NCBI GenBank assembly: GCA_021776375.1
Contig: JAJFGA010000022.1
Span: forward strand, 1 to 64,000
Direction of reading: 5' to 3'
DNA: 64,000 nucleotides
Source: Hyphococcus sp.
Lineage (GTDB): Bacteria > Pseudomonadota > Alphaproteobacteria > Caulobacterales > Parvularculaceae
Of this stretch, positions 16,271 through 23,536 are shown in pieces. The notes under the pieces were generated by a model. It worked only from the letters and a program-made list of their open reading frames with translations. It made no database searches and was not told where the DNA came from. Both the position numbers and the translations under genes were made by a program. The number at the start of each line of letters is the position of its first letter. Positions within the stretch are counted from its first letter, which is position 1.

Positions 16271-16351
16271 TCATCACCGGGCTTGTCCCGGTGATCCAGA
16301 AATTTCCCGCAAGTTGTAGCCCTGGATTGCCGGAACAAGTCCGGCAATGAC
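16271..16351. repeat. Dispersed palindromic repeat (family B), two hairpins
   Basis: Two hairpins, TCACCGGGCTTGTCCCGGTGA (16274-16294) and TTGCCGGAACAAGTCCGGCAA (16327-16347), face each other so that the whole segment is also an imperfect inverted repeat. It sits between the convergent mobA and permease genes and could stop transcription from both sides. Elements of this kind are common in alphaproteobacterial intergenic regions. Confidence 0.65.
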
Positions 16352-16413
16352 ATGAGGGATCGGTTACCGAAGCTAACTGATTAAAATGACTCAGTTCGTT
16401 TAGGGAACAGGCT

Positions 16414-17565
16414 CTAAGCCAGCGGAAAGATAAAAAACGCCAGCGCCGCCGCCGTCAGCAGGGTCGCCAGAGTAATCATTCTCACATTGGATTTCCGACG
16501 GAGATGCAGCCCCACCGGAATGAGCAGAAGATTGGCGAGCGTAATGAACACCGCATAAGCCATCGTCGGCACAAGTTCGTCGAGAGGAAAGCCGCCGCCC
16601 GCGAGCCCTCTTGCCAGAAACGGCAGCGACACCGCCATATCAATCGACAAGACAAGGCCGATATAGGCTTTGGCGATATCGGACAGCGCGACCTCGCATG
16701 TGCGTAAGAGACTGATAGCCTTTGTGGTCAACGCAAAGCCGTATTCACGTCCGGCGATCAGGCCGAGAAACACGAACGTCGTGCTCATGGGAATGGAGTT
16801 GAGCTCTTTGAAGTAGAACAGGAGCGAGGCATAGGTGAAGTCGATAATCGTTGCGGAGCGGATGTCGGATACCGCGGTCTTCGATTTCAAAATCCGCTGA
16901 ACCGGGCCGCCATTATTAGCAAAAGTGTAGGCGAGAAGCGCGACGATGGCGAACATCGCGGTAAAGCCTTCGACTGCGGTTATCTCACGTGGGAGAAAAA
17001 CAAAAATATTGGCGAAATCCTGGATCAGCCATACCGACCACAAATAACCGGTCGTCATCCATTGTAGTAACACCCAGATGGGATGGTGTTGCTGGTGCAC
17101 CGTCTTTCGAAAAAACTTCTCAAGCGTATTAGAGGCGATGAGGAAAATCCCAAGGCCGACCGCAAAGGCGAGCCCGTAGCCGATCAGGGATTTTTGCAGC
17201 ATTGAGGTCAGGCCGCCGATGGAGGCGAAGACGGTAAGGACCATGAACGAGGTTGAGACCGGAACGCCGAACCGGGTGATGATTAATAGAACCAGCGGTG
17301 GCAGCGTATGATACCATTGAACCTCAATAGCCGGATATTTTTTGGCGTTGGATAGGCGTCCAAAGGACGGGTCCCCGTCATTGATCACCCAGCCATAGGA
17401 GAACGTCACGACAAGGATGATCGCGGCGAATAGAAACAGCCAGAACCAGTGCAGGCGGTTGTTGGAGCTGATGAAGGTGCCCAGCGTCTGCAGCGCGTCA
17501 TTGCCGACAACGGCGTAGGCCGCAAACAAAAACCCGACAATGGCAAAGAGAGAAATATCGAACAC
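16414..17565 (-). CDS. PiT-like multi-pass permease (probable phosphate transporter)
   Basis: The 383-residue protein has about ten hydrophobic segments. Two features recall the inverted repeats of PiT phosphate permeases: an N-terminal VVGNDALQTLGTFISSN (about 20-36, comparable to the GANDxxNAxGT motif) and paired loops GVPVSTSFMVL (about 100) and SIPMSTTFVFLG (about 255), like the PxST motif. The match to classical PiT is distant, so the substrate is provisional. An OprP-like porin gene lies divergently upstream, which supports phosphate or another oxyanion. Confidence 0.6.
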   Translation of the reverse strand: MFDISLFAIVGFLFAAYAVVGNDALQTLGTFISSNNRLHWFWLFLFAAIILVVTFSYGWVINDGDPSFGRLSNAKKYPAIEVQWYHTLPPLVLLIITRFGVPVSTSFMVLTVFASIGGLTSMLQKSLIGYGLAFAVGLGIFLIASNTLEKFFRKTVHQQHHPIWVLLQWMTTGYLWSVWLIQDFANIFVFLPREITAVEGFTAMFAIVALLAYTFANNGGPVQRILKSKTAVSDIRSATIIDFTYASLLFYFKELNSIPMSTTFVFLGLIAGREYGFALTTKAISLLRTCEVALSDIAKAYIGLVLSIDMAVSLPFLARGLAGGGFPLDELVPTMAYAVFITLANLLLIPVGLHLRRKSNVRMITLATLLTAAALAFFIFPLA

Positions 17566-17763
17566 GGCTGGAAGAATCCTCTAAACGGAAATTTAGCGTG
17601 CCTAATATCGGCGAGTCTTGAAGGTTTTGTGACAGAGTGGCGGTTTTGGCGCAGGCGGTGCGCCTCATATCGGGCCATAGTATTGAAGTCGCGCCCGCCA
17701 GCGTGATTGCACCACGGTTCATCGGGCGCAAAACCTGCGCTTTTCGCAGTTTCGGAGTGCGGG

Positions 17764-17785
17764 TTGTCAAAAAAGTATCATAAAA
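17764..17785 (+). promoter_or_regulatory. Weak Pho-box-like direct repeat before the porin gene
   Basis: TTGTCAAAAAA and GTATCATAAAA form two 11-base units in tandem, the spacing of a PhoB site. Each unit departs from CTGTCATAAAT at one or more positions. It lies 69 bases before the porin start. Confidence 0.35.
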
Positions 17786-17853
17786 CCTTCTTCAAAGTTT
17801 CATGGTTTCACCACGGGGCGCCAAAGTCTGGGGTGTGTCAAAGGCCTTTTCGT

Positions 17854-19053
17854 ATGGTGTTTCGAGTTGCATTTTGGACGGCTGGGGCGGTTTTCCTTTC
17901 CGCTTCGCTGGCGTTGGCGGGAGAGCCTGATTTCCCTCCGGCTGCTGCGCCAGTGTTGTCCGATGTTAATGTTTTTGGCCGCGCTGTCGCAGACTATGCC
18001 ATTGCCAGCGGGGACAGTTCCGACTTCGACATCAGCGGCGGCGAGTTGCGCACAGCACGCGTCGGACTGTCCGGAAAACTATACGGCCTGGCACAGTTTA
18101 AAGCTGAATTGAGCATCGATAATGATGGCGACGTCGCGCTGACTGACGCTTATGTGGAAACCAAAATTGGCGGTCCAAAGCTTCGCGTCGGTCAGTTTAA
18201 AACACCCAATTCCTTCAACGAACAAACATCATCGAAATTTACCCTGACCCATGCGCGCCCCGCTTTTACCGATACTTTCAGCCTTGATCGCCGTGTTGGC
18301 GTCGCGGTTTTGGAGAGCCGCGACGGGTTTAGCTATGCGCTAGGGATATTCGCCCAGAATATTGAAGGCGAGGAGACCTTTGGCGGCTATGCGGTGGCCG
18401 GGCGTTTCACGCTCGCGCCGCGATTTGGCATTGATGATCTGCAAACCCATTTGGGCGTTTCTGCGCGCTATCGAAAAGGCGACAGCGATCAGCCGTTCTT
18501 CAGGTATCGCCAGCGGCCGGTCTCCCACATTCCGGGGCGCATTCTGGCGACGGAACGGTTTACACCGTCGGACGTTTTCATCGGGTTTGAAGCTGCGACC
18601 GCAAAGGGGCGCTTCTGGGCCGCCGGAGAATATGCGCTGACTTTCCCGACCTGCGATGCTTGTCCGGGCGACGTTACGCTTTCCGGCGGCTATATTGAGG
18701 CTGGTTTTATGGTGAACGGAGAACCCACGCTCAAAGGGGAGCGATTTGATCGGCCAAAGATATTCAACGGCGTAGAGGAGGGCGGGCTTGGCGCCCTGGC
18801 CTTCGCGTTGCGAGTGGACACAATCGATCTTGAAAATGCGCCCGCTTCAGGCGGCGCGTATAATTCCTATACTATCGGCGGGGATTGGTGGCCGACCGCG
18901 CGCATCCGGCTCGGCGTCAACGGCTATATTGTCGAGGCTGACCTTGGCGAGACGACGGCGGGGCTGGATGCGGCTTTTGCAGGCGCGGTATTAGCCGGAC
19001 TTCGCGACGAAACAGTCCGCGGTGTCGCGTTTCGAGCCCAGCTTGATTTCTGA
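17854..19053 (+). CDS. OprP/OprO-like outer-membrane porin
   Basis: From ATG at 17854 the protein is 399 residues, with a signal peptide (VFLSASLALAG). The next region matches the phosphate-selective porin family: FDISGGELRTARVGLSGKL, GLAQFKAELSIDNDG, VGQFKTPNSFNEQTSS and LDRRVGVAVL. It ends in the aromatic outer-membrane signature AFRAQLDF. Such porins let phosphate or polyphosphate cross the outer membrane. An ATG 147 bases upstream would add a non-signal extension and is rejected. It is divergent from a PiT-like permease. Confidence 0.8.
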   Translation: MVFRVAFWTAGAVFLSASLALAGEPDFPPAAAPVLSDVNVFGRAVADYAIASGDSSDFDISGGELRTARVGLSGKLYGLAQFKAELSIDNDGDVALTDAYVETKIGGPKLRVGQFKTPNSFNEQTSSKFTLTHARPAFTDTFSLDRRVGVAVLESRDGFSYALGIFAQNIEGEETFGGYAVAGRFTLAPRFGIDDLQTHLGVSARYRKGDSDQPFFRYRQRPVSHIPGRILATERFTPSDVFIGFEAATAKGRFWAAGEYALTFPTCDACPGDVTLSGGYIEAGFMVNGEPTLKGERFDRPKIFNGVEEGGLGALAFALRVDTIDLENAPASGGAYNSYTIGGDWWPTARIRLGVNGYIVEADLGETTAGLDAAFAGAVLAGLRDETVRGVAFRAQLDF

Positions 19054-19124
19054 GTCAAAGAGCCACGCGCAAAGCGCCGACTCTATTCGAAAATATCTAA
19101 ATACTATGGGGGAAGTCTGGTCGA

Positions 19125-19304
19125 CTACTTGGTTGAGGCGAAGACCACAGCATTGCTGCAGTTGGCCCCGAAGCATTCATCAAAAATACCGCCATTTGAT
19201 GCCTGGCCAGAAGACACAGCCATCGGAACGGCCAGCGCAATCGCAAATAGCGCGGCAACCACATATAAAAATGGGCGTCTTACACTCTGATGGGGCTCAT
19301 ACAT
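19125..19304 (-). CDS. Small secreted peptide, 59 residues
   Basis: This frame reads ATG (19304) to TAG (19125). The N-terminus MYEPHQSVRRPF is followed by a strong hydrophobic core (LYVVAALFAIALAVPMAVSS) and a likely signal-peptidase site near SSGQA. The mature part would be about 24 residues with two Cys (DECFGANCSN), which could form a disulfide. A weak ribosome site (AGG about 10 bases upstream) precedes it. About 70 bases upstream lies a promoter-like pair with an embedded Pho box. I do not recognise the family. The signal sequence and the promoter make it more than a chance frame. Confidence 0.55.
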   Translation of the reverse strand: MYEPHQSVRRPFLYVVAALFAIALAVPMAVSSGQASNGGIFDECFGANCSNAVVFASTK

Positions 19305-19373
19305 AACGCTAACCTGTTCTTTTCTTTTTATTTTCTACCGTTTTCCAGAGGCTACACACGAAATGTGACACAA

Positions 19374-19402
19374 ACTATAAAAAACTGTCATTTATCTGTC
19401 AT
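19374..19402 (-). promoter_or_regulatory. Candidate promoter of the small secreted peptide gene
   Basis: Read on the minus strand, ATGACA (19402-19397) is separated by exactly 17 bases from TATAGT (19379-19374). Transcription would begin near 19367 and give a leader of about 60 bases before the ATG at 19304. The promoter elements overlap the Pho box. Confidence 0.5.
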
Positions 19403-19406
19403 AAAT
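19385..19406. promoter_or_regulatory. Pho box (PhoB binding site)
   Basis: CTGTCATTTAT and CTGTCATAAAT are two exact 11-base units in tandem, matching the PhoB consensus of two CTGTCAT repeats at 11-base period. On the plus strand a TATAAG (19421-19426) follows; on the minus strand a promoter for the small secreted peptide overlaps the box. Which direction PhoB would activate is not settled by the sequence. Confidence 0.72.
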
Positions 19407-19874
19407 ACCCTGTGGCTGTGTATAAGTCAATAAAAAGCGCAACGGTTGCGCAAAATCCTGATAACCATTTGATAGAAATAGATAATTAGGATTTGCGGGC
19501 GGTGATTAGAGTGGCTGCGCGCCACATAAACCGCGATATTTGTGAGCAAAAACTGACCAACAGGGGCCGGTCTTTAAGCTTGGGAAAAACGGATTGCGTG
19601 CTTGAGCCGGTGATTATCCCACTTCGATGGCGAGCGCTGAATGGCGGCATATGCAAATAGGCCCTCAGGGGAACCGCAAGCATGACGACGGATCGCGTAG
19701 AACGAAGAATGCTCCCGTGGGCCGTTTGCCGGAGAGCAATGGCCCTGCCGCAATAGCGGTCTATCGCCATCGCGATGAAGGATAATTGGGTGCGTTCACA
19801 GGACAATCCGCCCGGTGGACAAGGCGCCCGCAGCGCGGTTAATGCCCATGCGTAAGCCCGTCAGGAGAGACCCG
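19407..19874. other. Gene-free stretch between the Pho box and adhC
   Basis: About 470 bases with no supported gene. Frames on both strands (minus 19486-19806; a 50-odd-codon plus frame from 19627) have no family resemblance or good ribosome site. If PhoB activates rightward, an unannotated small RNA could lie here. The adhC ribosome site AGGAGAGA is at 19863-19870. Confidence 0.4.
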
Positions 19875-20987
19875 ATGAAAACCAGAGCCGCTATCGCTTT
19901 TGCGCCCAACCGGCCGCTGGTCATCGAAGAGGTTGATCTTGAAGGCCCGAAAGCCGGCGAGGTTTTGGTCGAGATCATGGCGACCGGCATCTGTCATACC
20001 GACGCCTATACGCTTGAAGGCAAAGATTCTGAGGGCATTTTCCCGTCCATTCTTGGCCATGAAGGCGCCGGCATCGTGCGCGAGGTTGGCGCCGGCGTGA
20101 CGAGCGTTGAGCCCGGCGACCATGTCATCCCGCTCTACACAGCTGAATGCCGGCAATGCAAAACATGCCTGTCGCAGAAATCAAATCTGTGTACGTCGGT
20201 TCGAGCGACGCAAGGAAAAGGCGTCATGCCGGACGGAACCAGCCGGTTCTCGTATAAAGGCGAGAAGTTGTTTCATTATATGGGCTGTTCGACATTTTCG
20301 AACTTCACTGTGCTGCCAGAGGTATCGGTTGCGAAGATCCGCAAGGATGCGCCGTTTGACAAAGCTTGTTATATTGGCTGCGGCGTTACCACCGGCGTTG
20401 GTGCGGTGGTTTGGACCGCGGGCGTTGAGCCGGGCGCCAGCGTCGTCGTCTTCGGCCTTGGCGGTATCGGTCTGAATGTTGTTCAGGGCGCAAAACTGGT
20501 CGGCGCGGATAAGATTATTGGCGTCGATATCAATCCCCGCCGCCGCGAGATCGCCGAGCAATTCGGCATGACGCAATTCATTAACGTAAACGACGTCGGC
20601 GCCAATAATGTGGTCGAAAAAGTCGTTGAACTCACCGGCGGTGGCGCAGACTATTCATTCGATTGTACTGGCAATACTGACGTTATGCGTCAGGCGTTGG
20701 AATGTTGTCATCGCGGTTGGGGCCAATCGATCATCATTGGCGTTGCAGAAGCGGGCAAGGAAATTTCAACGCGGCCGTTCCAGCTTGTCACCGGCCGTGT
20801 CTGGAAAGGCACCGCCTTTGGCGGCGCACGCGGGCGCACCGATACGCCGAAAATTGTCGACTGGTATATGGATGATAAAATCAATATCGATGATCTCATC
20901 ACACACACCATGCCGCTGGAAGATATCAACAAGGCGTTTGATTTGATGCATGCGGGGGAAAGCATCCGCTCGGTAGTAATTTATTGA
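19875..20987 (+). CDS. adhC: S-(hydroxymethyl)glutathione dehydrogenase / class III alcohol dehydrogenase
   Basis: The 370-residue zinc enzyme oxidises S-hydroxymethylglutathione, formed from formaldehyde and glutathione, with NAD+. It shows [14 protein letters not shown] at the start, the catalytic-zinc motif [12 protein letters not shown] (about 40-51), the structural zinc cysteines [15 protein letters not shown] (about 93-107) and the NAD fold [17 protein letters not shown]. The start at 19875 follows AGGAGAGA; an upstream GTG is in frame but adds residues unlike the family. Together with fghA it forms the glutathione-dependent formaldehyde pathway. Confidence 0.95.
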
Positions 20988-20995
20988 GACTGCAA

Positions 20996-21490
20996 ATGAA
21001 AACGCGCCGTATAGAGATTACCAATGCAACTGCTGATGGCGATGTTGCTGCGGTCCAGCTGTTGTTTCGGGACTATGCGGCCTTCCTCAAAATTGATCTC
21101 TGCTTTCAAGATTTCGAAGAGGAGATGGCGACCTTTCCAAAATTCTATAAATTGCTGTTGCTCGCTCGTGTTGACGGGCTTGCCGCCGCGGCGGTGGGGT
21201 TGAAGGACCTTGGCGACGGTATTTGTGAAATGAAAAGGCTATATGCGCGGCCGAATTTTCAAGGTCTGGGCCTCGGGCGGAGGTTATGTAGCGATTTAAT
21301 CGAACAAGCGCGCAGTCTTGGGTTTCGCTATATGCGTCTTGATACGTTAAAGCGTCTAAAACCGGCGCTTTCGCTTTATCATAAATATGGATTTGTCGAG
21401 ATCGAAAAATATTACGACAACCCGGAAGACGGCGTTGTTTTTATGGAATTGGATTTGCGGGCGGAAAATGAAGACACTGTCGATAGTTAG
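20996..21490 (+). CDS. GNAT-family N-acetyltransferase
   Basis: From ATG at 20996 (TTG at 20984 also possible) the 164-residue GNAT domain shows EMKRLYARPNFQGLGLGRRLCSDLIEQA (about 76-103, CoA loop) and ALSLYHKYGFVEIEKYYDN. It resembles small acetyltransferases near PhnO/YhfO. It sits between adhC and fghA and overlaps the fghA start by 23 bases, so it is probably translated with them. Whether it has a part in formaldehyde metabolism is unknown. Confidence 0.82.
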   Translation: MKTRRIEITNATADGDVAAVQLLFRDYAAFLKIDLCFQDFEEEMATFPKFYKLLLLARVDGLAAAAVGLKDLGDGICEMKRLYARPNFQGLGLGRRLCSDLIEQARSLGFRYMRLDTLKRLKPALSLYHKYGFVEIEKYYDNPEDGVVFMELDLRAENEDTVDS

Positions 21491-22337
21491 GACCTTCGGA
21501 GGAATTCAATCCGTCTTTTCGCATGCGAGTAAAGCATGCCGCTGCGATATGCGTTTTGCAGTTTTTACGCCGCCGGAAGATATCCACGGGGTGGGGCCGT
21601 TTCCGGTTTTATACTGGCTTTCGGGTCTGACTTGTACGGAGGAGAACTTTATCTCCAAGGCTGGCGCACAACGCGTTGCGGCGGAGTTGGGTATGGTGAT
21701 TGTCGCGCCAGACACATCGCCGCGCGGTGCTGATATCAATGAGAATGACGTGCCAGACGACCCCGACGGCGCCTATGATTTTGGGCTTGGCGCCGGCTTC
21801 TATGTGGATGCGACCGAGGCGCCATGGGCAACGCATTACAATATGTATTCTTATATTACCGAAGAGCTGCCGGCGATTATCGAGAAGGAATTTCCGGTCG
21901 ATGCGGCGCGCACCGGAATTTTCGGTCACTCCATGGGCGGCCATGGCGCACTGACTATTCATTTAAAAAATCCGAGAAAATATAAATCCTGTTCGGCTTT
22001 TGCGCCAATCGTCGCGCCGACAAGCGTTCCCTGGGGTGAGAAAGCGCTTTCAAACTATCTTGGTGCGGATAAAGACAAATGGGCTAGCTATGACGCTACC
22101 GCGCTGTTGACGGACCATGGCGCCAGTGAAGCACATATTCTGATTGATCAGGGAAGAGCGGATCACTTTCTTGACACTCAGCTAAAGCCAGAAATTTTTA
22201 ATATGGCGGCAGATAAAGCCGGACAAGCGCTGACCTTGCGCATGCAGGCCGGCTACGATCATTCCTATTATTTTATCGCAACCTTTATAGAAGACCATTT
22301 GCGGTGGCATCACCGAGCGTTAATGCAAGCGGCATAA
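21468..22337 (+). CDS. fghA: S-formylglutathione hydrolase
   Basis: The 289-residue alpha/beta hydrolase splits S-formylglutathione into formate and glutathione. The sequence gives FPVLYWLSGLTCTEENFISKAGAQ (oxyanion region), the nucleophile elbow FGHSMGGHGAL at about 152 and the catalytic His in YDHSYYF near the end, which matches esterase D/FghA. The start at 21468 (within the GNAT gene) gives the family N-terminus; the longer frame from 21387 does not. Confidence 0.93.
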   Translation: MKTLSIVRTFGGIQSVFSHASKACRCDMRFAVFTPPEDIHGVGPFPVLYWLSGLTCTEENFISKAGAQRVAAELGMVIVAPDTSPRGADINENDVPDDPDGAYDFGLGAGFYVDATEAPWATHYNMYSYITEELPAIIEKEFPVDAARTGIFGHSMGGHGALTIHLKNPRKYKSCSAFAPIVAPTSVPWGEKALSNYLGADKDKWASYDATALLTDHGASEAHILIDQGRADHFLDTQLKPEIFNMAADKAGQALTLRMQAGYDHSYYFIATFIEDHLRWHHRALMQAA

Positions 22338-22366
22338 ACGGCGCTCTTAACCTATGGAGACGTACG

Positions 22367-23536
22367 TTGAGTAAAAATACAGAACTATTTGACGCCTGGA
22401 TCCGTTCGTCTTTCGTGGAGATGAATTCCGCGCTCGAAGAGGTTTATTTCGCCCGTGAAAACCGCGCCGACGTTGAGGGCGTCGGCGATGATATCAAAAA
22501 GCAAATCCTTGATGAGGGGCGTGGCTACATCATCAAGCTGGTGGCGGAAGGCAACACCGATGAAGGTTTTGGCGCCGCCTTCGACCTTCTCGGCAATCTC
22601 GGACTTTATATGGCGGCGCTGCGTCGTCACGAGATGACCAATCCTGCGCGCGAACAAAAATCACCACATCAGGAAGCCTCCGCCCTCGGCATGCATATCG
22701 CAACATCGCTTGGCGTGACGCCGCGGTTCGCCACCAGCCATCTGTCGACGCATAACAGCGCGGTTGGCGGCGTGCAGAAGAGTTTCACATCGCTTAGGGA
22801 CGAATTTCTTTTTCTCGATTACAACACTTGCGGCATTCTGGCGTTTAAACGGGCGGCGGATGCGTTGATTAGAATTTTACCACTCGGCGTCTCGCATCCG
22901 GTGACGGCTGTACTCCTGAATGATGCGGCGGACGCCTTGCGGGCCGTAAAAAAATTCAACGAAAAACTATTTGGCGAGCTGGATACGGAACGTTTCTTTT
23001 TCTGTGTGCGGCCTTACTACAAACCCTACCGGGTCGGCCGGCATGAATATCGCGGCGCCAATGCGGGTGATTTTTCGGGCATAAACGAAATTGATATGTT
23101 GCTTGGGTTGTGCCGCGCGAATGATCCTTATTATTCGCAGCTTCTGGTCGATAAGATGTTGTTCATGATGCCTGCCGATCAGGCGTCTCTGCGCGATTGT
23201 ATGTCGAAGCGACCGCTGTTGGATCAATACCTTGATTGTGTTTCCTCTGCGGGCGAGGCATGGTTTCAAACGAACGCAGCTGCATTTCTTGAAGTCTGTG
23301 CACTACATGGCGAGATTGCCGCGCAGCATCACGACCAACTGGTTGAAAAATTTATTGCCGGACCAGCGGGCGCAATCTCAGGGACGCATCTCGATCAAGT
23401 CACCGCGAGCGGTCCGCCTTTGCCAGTTTTGCTCAATGCGCTGGAAGTGCTGCGCGATTTGCGAGTCGCCGCGAACCGTAGTGATATCACGACGAGCCAC
23501 GCGCAAATTGAGCAGCTACGAGATCTGGTTTCGTAA
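22367..23536 (+). CDS. PrnB/DUF1864-like protein (indoleamine-dioxygenase superfamily candidate)
   Basis: The start is TTG at 22367, placed six to seven bases after GGAGA. The 389-residue product is soluble and mostly helical. Conserved-looking blocks are TPRFATSHLSTHNSAVGG (about 115-132), RPYYKPYRVG then HEYRGANAGDFSGINEIDMLLGLC (about 210-245) and YYSQLLVDKMLFMMP. These recall the DUF1864/PrnB family, whose best-known member (PrnB) is a heme protein that rearranges chlorotryptophan in pyrrolnitrin synthesis. The gene follows fghA with a gap of under 30 bases. The match is from memory of the family, so the function stays open. Confidence 0.5.
   Translation: MSKNTELFDAWIRSSFVEMNSALEEVYFARENRADVEGVGDDIKKQILDEGRGYIIKLVAEGNTDEGFGAAFDLLGNLGLYMAALRRHEMTNPAREQKSPHQEASALGMHIATSLGVTPRFATSHLSTHNSAVGGVQKSFTSLRDEFLFLDYNTCGILAFKRAADALIRILPLGVSHPVTAVLLNDAADALRAVKKFNEKLFGELDTERFFFCVRPYYKPYRVGRHEYRGANAGDFSGINEIDMLLGLCRANDPYYSQLLVDKMLFMMPADQASLRDCMSKRPLLDQYLDCVSSAGEAWFQTNAAAFLEVCALHGEIAAQHHDQLVEKFIAGPAGAISGTHLDQVTASGPPLPVLLNALEVLRDLRVAANRSDITTSHAQIEQLRDLVS

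Follow-up and report, generated by a model that had tools for sequence, protein, structure and literature searches.

PhoB is best known for activating genes, and 10 bases separate the Pho box from the −10 element at E. coli phoA. MgrB, a small protein whose N-terminus is inside and whose Cys pair is outside, restrains the sensor kinase PhoQ. The Pho box has been described as a 7-4-7 arrangement of CTGTCAT half-sites (PMC3131613). At E. coli phoB itself a PhoB site lies antisense at the −10 element; according to that study the bound protein obstructs the promoter, and mutations in the half-sites relieve the repression (PMC6194859). In S. meliloti, the box of orfA-pit immediately precedes the start codon, and Pi starvation represses these genes (PMC3131613, citing Bardin et al.). 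In E. coli, MgtS, a protein of 31 aa, is thought to restrain PitA (PMC10710835).

The locus described here, a gene for a predicted membrane miniprotein beside a putative permease and a porin, resembles each of the last three systems in part. Like E. coli phoB, it has PhoB half-sites antisense to the gene at the core promoter, where occlusion of RNA polymerase is proposed; unlike the E. coli site, which is weak, 5-bp spaced and just limits an induced gene (PMC6194859), the miniprotein box is of consensus quality and 6-bp spaced, and no forward box was noticed upstream of it. It shares with orfA-pit a box downstream of the usual place, a link to phosphate transport and, by our prediction, a fall in expression in starvation. 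However, in S. meliloti the transporter itself is repressed (PMC3131613), whereas here a forward repeat precedes the permease and a reversed one the miniprotein gene. As with MgtS and PitA, the target proposed for the miniprotein is a permease for phosphate, but MgtS serves Mg homeostasis (PMC10710835), the partner here is putative, and the likeness is one of proposed role.

The window, by which we mean the whole stretch of 64,000 nucleotides analysed, contains the features collected in Table 1. An unannotated 59-residue frame had been proposed as a gene in a preliminary description of this DNA, and the comparisons with relatives bear this out. The frame starts 80 bases beyond the Pho box and has AGG 9–11 bases before its ATG. 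The dN/dS ratio was 0.02–0.20 in all 10 pairs among the five closest family members, and a tblastn search of 100 genomes with the 59-residue sequence, the check suggested in that description, gave hits at E ≤ 1e-6 in 16 of them, the own genome counted, at 17 places in all; a further copy on contig 47 of the own genome came up at E 9e-4. Promoter model and reading frame together locate the family (hereafter family A) in 26 of the 28 genus genomes (Marinicaulis-like Parvularculaceae) and miss it in G002 and in G018, the latter 76% complete. The nine sequences of the window's own subgroup align without gaps over 59 columns, 23 of them invariant. Before alignment A1, one near-duplicate and three divergent loci (L030, L034, L038 and L040) were left out. 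The 59-codon frame is a true, conserved gene, and its product belongs to an unnamed, previously unannotated family of tiny, predicted membrane proteins within one bacterial family. None of the Pfam and NCBIfam models scanned matched the miniprotein; the literature on Pho-controlled small membrane proteins, covered by title and abstract, did not yield the family either, which leaves its absence from print unproven.

Table 1. Positions of the features discussed, numbered from the first letter of the window.
Feature	Position	Strand	Basis or remark
Palindrome GCGCA-N5-TGCGC	19437..19451		Probable site of a second regulator; also upstream of phoU
Gene for 59-aa single-helix membrane miniprotein (predicted)	19125..19304	-	Stop included; tblastn homologues, dN/dS, alignment, AlphaFold helix
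Pho box CTGTCAT-TTAT-CTGTCAT	19385..19402	+	Antisense to miniprotein gene; kept upstream of family members
Candidate core promoter 1: TTGACT (19430-19425), 17 bases, TATTTA (19407-19402)	19402..19430	-	TTGAC conservation
Candidate core promoter 2 (that of the preliminary description): ATGACA (19402-19397), 17 bases, TATAGT (19379-19374)	19374..19402	-	11/27 members
Multi-pass permease, PiT-like motifs (ND, P.ST twice)	16414..17565	-	Conserved neighbour; motifs
Permease forward Pho-type repeat CTGTCACAAAACCTTCAA (17635-17618), −10 TATTAG (17607-17602) ten bases on	17602..17635	-	Aligned rows
Degenerate forward Pho-type repeat TTGTCAAAAAAGTATCAT before porin start	17764..17781	+	By eye, weaker evidence
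OprO/OprP-like porin	17854..19053	+	Frame opens at 17707; signal peptide from ATG 17854 by inspection

The window holds a single match to CTGTCATN4CTGTCAT at ≤3 mismatches, and that match, at 19385–19402, has none. That no others occur is unsurprising, since chance predicts 2.6 at this threshold. In the 3.1-Mb draft genome this is the sole Pho box with 0 mismatches, against an expectation from base composition of 0.015 per genome (3e-4 per window), and a chance origin was rejected on these grounds. At ≤2 mismatches the Pho pattern occurs at 15 places in the draft genome and the reversed pattern at 3. Across the 28 genus genomes there are 78 places at ≤1 mismatch to CTGTCATN4CTGTCAY, compared with 13 for the control. 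Seventeen sites are exact, and 16 of these lie in promoters of family A or of a second family, B (see below), all 16 being reversed relative to the gene; this classification is of exact sites. The consensus of 26 aligned members, reverse-complemented, is CTGTCATATAACTGTCAT, and it matches the familiar E. coli Pho box consensus at 18/18 positions. In the search for box conservation the best box within 300 bases upstream of each member was taken, and because the search selects the best box its scores are no evidence by themselves; four weak tblastn hits in which neither the module nor the family motif was seen by eye (L029, L042, L043 and L044) had been left out. Two CTGTCAT-type half-sites at an 11-bp period are what is expected of a direct PhoB target, and the own genome encodes PhoB (TIGR02154, E 5.5e-105). 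The earlier claim of a direct-repeat site of PhoB type upstream of the frame is confirmed by the exact match and by its retention in relatives, among which loss of the frame where the box is kept was looked for and not seen.

As to the promoter, the preliminary description had placed ATGACA-17-TATAGT over the box. This pair is present, with its −35 element inside the box and the box ending 5 bases before its −10, but there is an alternative immediately upstream of it, TTGACT-17-TATTTA (candidate 1), and a scan of 27 members (L030, L038 and L040 left out) did not decide between the two. The TTGAC of candidate 1 is kept in 26 members and reads TTGAA in the remaining one, and TTGA is found 28–35 bases before the box in 27/27, although the −10 of this candidate in the window, TATTTA, is weak. 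ATGACA-17-TATnnn is kept in 11 members, all of 59–62 aa and ten of them at permease/porin loci; L021, L024 and L026 adjoin the permease yet do not have it. A −10 score of at least 4 of 6 was reached by 14/27 members for candidate 1 and 15/27 for candidate 2, whereas a combined −35 and −10 score of at least 9 was reached by 18 and 12, respectively. Whichever promoter is used, in the 27 members examined the Pho box overlaps the core promoter and is reversed relative to the gene.

A gene activated by PhoB would be expected to have a forward box with the −10 element about 10 bases after it; the miniprotein box is reversed and lies inside the core promoter. Because this is the geometry of repressing sites, at E. 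coli phoB and elsewhere, we predict with moderate confidence that phosphorylated PhoB represses the miniprotein gene in phosphate starvation. The gene had been put forward as phosphate-starvation-induced, which this geometry does not support. One alternative is that PhoB activates the gene in starvation from ATGACA-17-TATAGT. We give this model a small probability. In its favour, that pair is kept in the 11 members noted above, mostly at permease/porin loci, and co-expression with a permease and porin that are themselves predicted to be Pho-induced would be natural. However, besides being reversed, the box leaves 5 bases to the −10, as compared with 10 for the permease repeat in the window. 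Furthermore, 12 of the other 16 members score below 4 of 6 at that −10 although these 16 retain the box and, with a single exception, TTGAC.

The main rival to PhoB is a CenR-like or UzcR-like regulator of the OmpR family, also reading an 11-bp direct repeat, which would own TGACA-N6-TGACA, so that the module would belong to an envelope regulon instead of a Pho regulon. CenR of R. sphaeroides is reported to bind TGA-N8-TGA before envelope genes, the sites of repressed targets lying between the −35 element and the transcription start site (PMC9275681), and the box sequence satisfies TGA-N8-TGA on the strand of the gene. The promoter module described below, moreover, lies before genes for small membrane and secreted proteins, two of them of UrcA type and in other genera, and UrcA is given as a UzcR target in Caulobacter (PMC8963506). 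We nevertheless consider an owner of this kind unlikely. In contrast to the CenR sites (PMC9275681), the consensus here extends beyond TGA to a full Pho box, and the genes at the locus, for a permease and an OprP porin, come with Pho-type repeats in forward orientation. The 900 bases upstream of tolQ contained no TGAC-N7-TGAC at the 24 loci scanned, some of them incomplete, and two had TGAC-N7-TGAG, but CenR sites are degenerate and the test is a weak one. UzcR as owner of the repeats was rejected, since its published site, CATTAC-N6-TTAA, has a different half-site (PMC8963506).

The same frame had been described as encoding a secreted peptide with a 24-residue Cys-containing mature part. A profile built from 27 members also finds five shorter homologues of 44–50 aa, which score 33–40 bits against a maximum of 17.8 bits among 960 shuffled sequences; four further candidates of 46–48 aa are borderline at 17–20 bits. 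The five clear homologues stop 2–10 residues after the hydrophobic stretch and the four borderline ones 1 residue after it. Because the short homologues end there, what is common to the family is the helix, not the Cys part, and the helix region carries Y, P and A from the invariant columns across the family. AlphaFold places a helix at residues 9–31 of the miniprotein (mean pLDDT 58, modest confidence). We read the product as a predicted single-pass membrane miniprotein, since there is so little after the helix in the five clear homologues, and its N-terminus is probably inside because basic residues precede the helix. That the hydrophobic stretch is instead a cleaved signal peptide, releasing a Cys-pair peptide that might serve, for example, as a signal, seems quite improbable. 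The Cys-containing part is largely invariant in the window's own subgroup, with GGIFDECF and a second Cys present in 9/9, and cleavage is conceivable where a helix gives way to small residues. However, the Cys-containing part is missing in the homologues of 44–50 aa, and about 20–33 residues precede the helix in distant members (by eye). The claim of secretion is, on this evidence, doubtful. The predicted membrane miniprotein resembles MgrB in its small size, its probable N-in orientation and its Cys pair, but some members have no Cys part, and a link to the sensor kinase PhoR would be putative.

The neighbours had been named as a PiT-like permease and an OprP-like porin. The second assignment stands: the porin frame (17707–19053) matches Porin_O_P PF07396 with E 5.9e-29 and 101.9 bits, the cut-off being 20.9. 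The permease is PiT-like by its short motifs, but it matched no Pfam model (PHO4, PF01384, included), no NCBIfam model and no PDB sequence, and hhalign gave no match to E. coli PitA; its AlphaFold model, with a pLDDT of 35, was useless, and the label PiT is unproven. Upstream of the permease runs the repeat TGTCA(C/T)AAA...CTTTCAA, whose first half-site, TGTCA, is present in 9/9 aligned rows (L101 left out) and whose second is degenerate. In the window this gene fits the activated layout, its forward repeat being separated by ten bases from a −10. The three genes, for permease, OprP-type porin and miniprotein, lie side by side in 9/9 named relatives, the porin being a remnant in L102. Because four of these nine loci have neither adhC nor mobA within the fetched stretch, the trio is kept independently of these genes. 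Within the 3-kb loci of 34 genus members, 13 miniprotein genes are near the permease or porin, 15 near an M19 dipeptidase (assigned by PF01244, one of the 15 being a 22-aa match at the locus end) and 6 near neither. The own porin-pst operon has forward repeats, CTGTCATCGAACTGAAATGCCATTGTCAT; of five relatives, 4 show related sequence there, and in the fifth the start was misplaced. By sequence, the neighbourhood looks phosphate-related. Transcription from the box rightward into 19427–19874 was rejected as an alternative: DNA similarity there reaches just the closer relatives among 9 loci, the Pho box and miniprotein gene persisting in distant relatives where it is gone, and no Rfam match up to E 0.1 was found in 16300–21000. 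The pst operon of the own genome (contig 42, 34000–45000) opens with a second OprP-type porin (PF07396), closes with a second phoU and has three forward Pho-type half-sites at an 11-bp period in its promoter. Within the window, 22304–23536 encodes a full-length PrnB-type protein (PF08933, 570 bits).

We propose the following scheme, to which as a whole we assign a probability of about 0.45. A promoter of sigma-70 type would drive the miniprotein gene, and a consensus PhoB operator lying reversed across it would allow phosphorylated PhoB to block RNA polymerase once phosphate is exhausted. The permease and the OprP-type porin would be switched on in starvation through their own Pho-type repeats, which are in forward orientation. 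The miniprotein would be produced while phosphate is plentiful and withdrawn once the cells starve; while present, it would bind and restrain a membrane partner, which in the permease-linked subgroup could be the adjacent permease, with MgtS-PitA as the model. A permease-specific role cannot hold for all members, because 15/34 adjoin the M19 dipeptidase and would need a different partner. Restraint on a membrane partner is the most economical role and in our judgement the likeliest, and we suggest the general label membrane miniprotein regulator. The family is, in any case, a located and previously unannotated one, tied to porin and permease.

The promoter has a recurrent architecture. In 26 aligned upstream regions GCGCA-N5-TGCGC is followed after about 6–9 bases by TTGAC, an AT-rich −10 and then ATGACAG-TTAT-ATGACAG, often with a second GCGCA pair between TTGAC and the −10. 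A sequence-only model of this module (R1) found 48 distinct places in the genus at E ≤ 1e-3, tallied by hand with 4 opposite-strand duplicates removed: 34 before miniproteins, 13 before family B and 1 within a coding region that by eye resembles the end of mutS. The training set of R1 contained 24 of the 34 family A members found, and the 24 non-training places comprise 10 of family A, 13 of family B and the coding region (hand tally). Family B is an unnamed protein of about 116–130 aa with an apparent signal peptide and the motif WAVDVRVKSR...YTVIF.DGEPIAL (L103–L116, L119). It was found in 18/28 genus genomes and not in the own draft genome, and the members scanned had no Pfam match over cut-off and no NCBIfam match. 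Two to four tandem reversed Pho half-sites are seen by eye around the −35 and −10 elements of its promoters.

The module occurs in 44/62 genomes and 8/9 genera of Parvularculaceae. Among 17 places read in other genera, 8 precede single-helix miniproteins, 7 precede proteins resembling family B by eye and 2 precede UrcA-type proteins. One of the 8 miniproteins had been used to build the profile, two are clear matches to it (28 bits) and four fail the controls (0.1–11 bits). Because of these four, several of the 8 genes may be unrelated and have just the type of promoter in common. The UrcA-type proteins (L270 and L272, TIGR04433, the latter barely at cut-off) are from another genus.

The GCGCA-N5-TGCGC element is the probable site of a second regulator. 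Upstream of phoU it is exact in 17/20 genomes and within 1 mismatch in 19/20, as compared with 45/4000 shuffles, which preserve single-base composition only; the set is 30 loci minus 10 (six second copies and four with an unplaceable start). The own phoU, checked separately, has the element with one mismatch. In the phoR-phoU gap (L203 and the 20 phoU loci), a single pattern, GACAAGA-N3-TGTCA, is found in 18/20. Exact copies of GCGCA-N5-TGCGC number 30–40 per genome in six genomes, against 7–30 for the reversed pattern, G013 being weak at 40 versus 30. In G004, 20 of 34 sites, all outside the miniprotein and phoU loci, were inspected, and 7 of the 20 are intergenic by a simple longest-frame call. 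Because the genes beside these intergenic sites are mixed, the element is not confined to genes for phosphate, and with the six-genome counts this led us to reject a phosphate-specific factor.

One could envision, more speculatively, a Pho-off regulon in Parvularculaceae. Dozens of unnamed membrane miniproteins and small secreted proteins would have a single compact kind of promoter module in common, with reversed, sometimes four-fold tandem PhoB operators of consensus quality that shut them off in starvation, a regulator of GCGCA-N5-TGCGC would also mark phoU promoters, and the permease-linked miniproteins would be counter-regulated restraints on phosphate uptake. We hold this broader picture to be doubtful but possible. 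If it is true, the Pho regulon gains a conserved off arm across a bacterial family, and a ready set of promoters exists for testing how the orientation of an operator decides whether a response regulator activates or represses. A cluster of TGCGCA-like repeats was also seen by eye at about 1400–1470 of L244, between a lipoprotein-like and a prepilin-peptidase-like gene.
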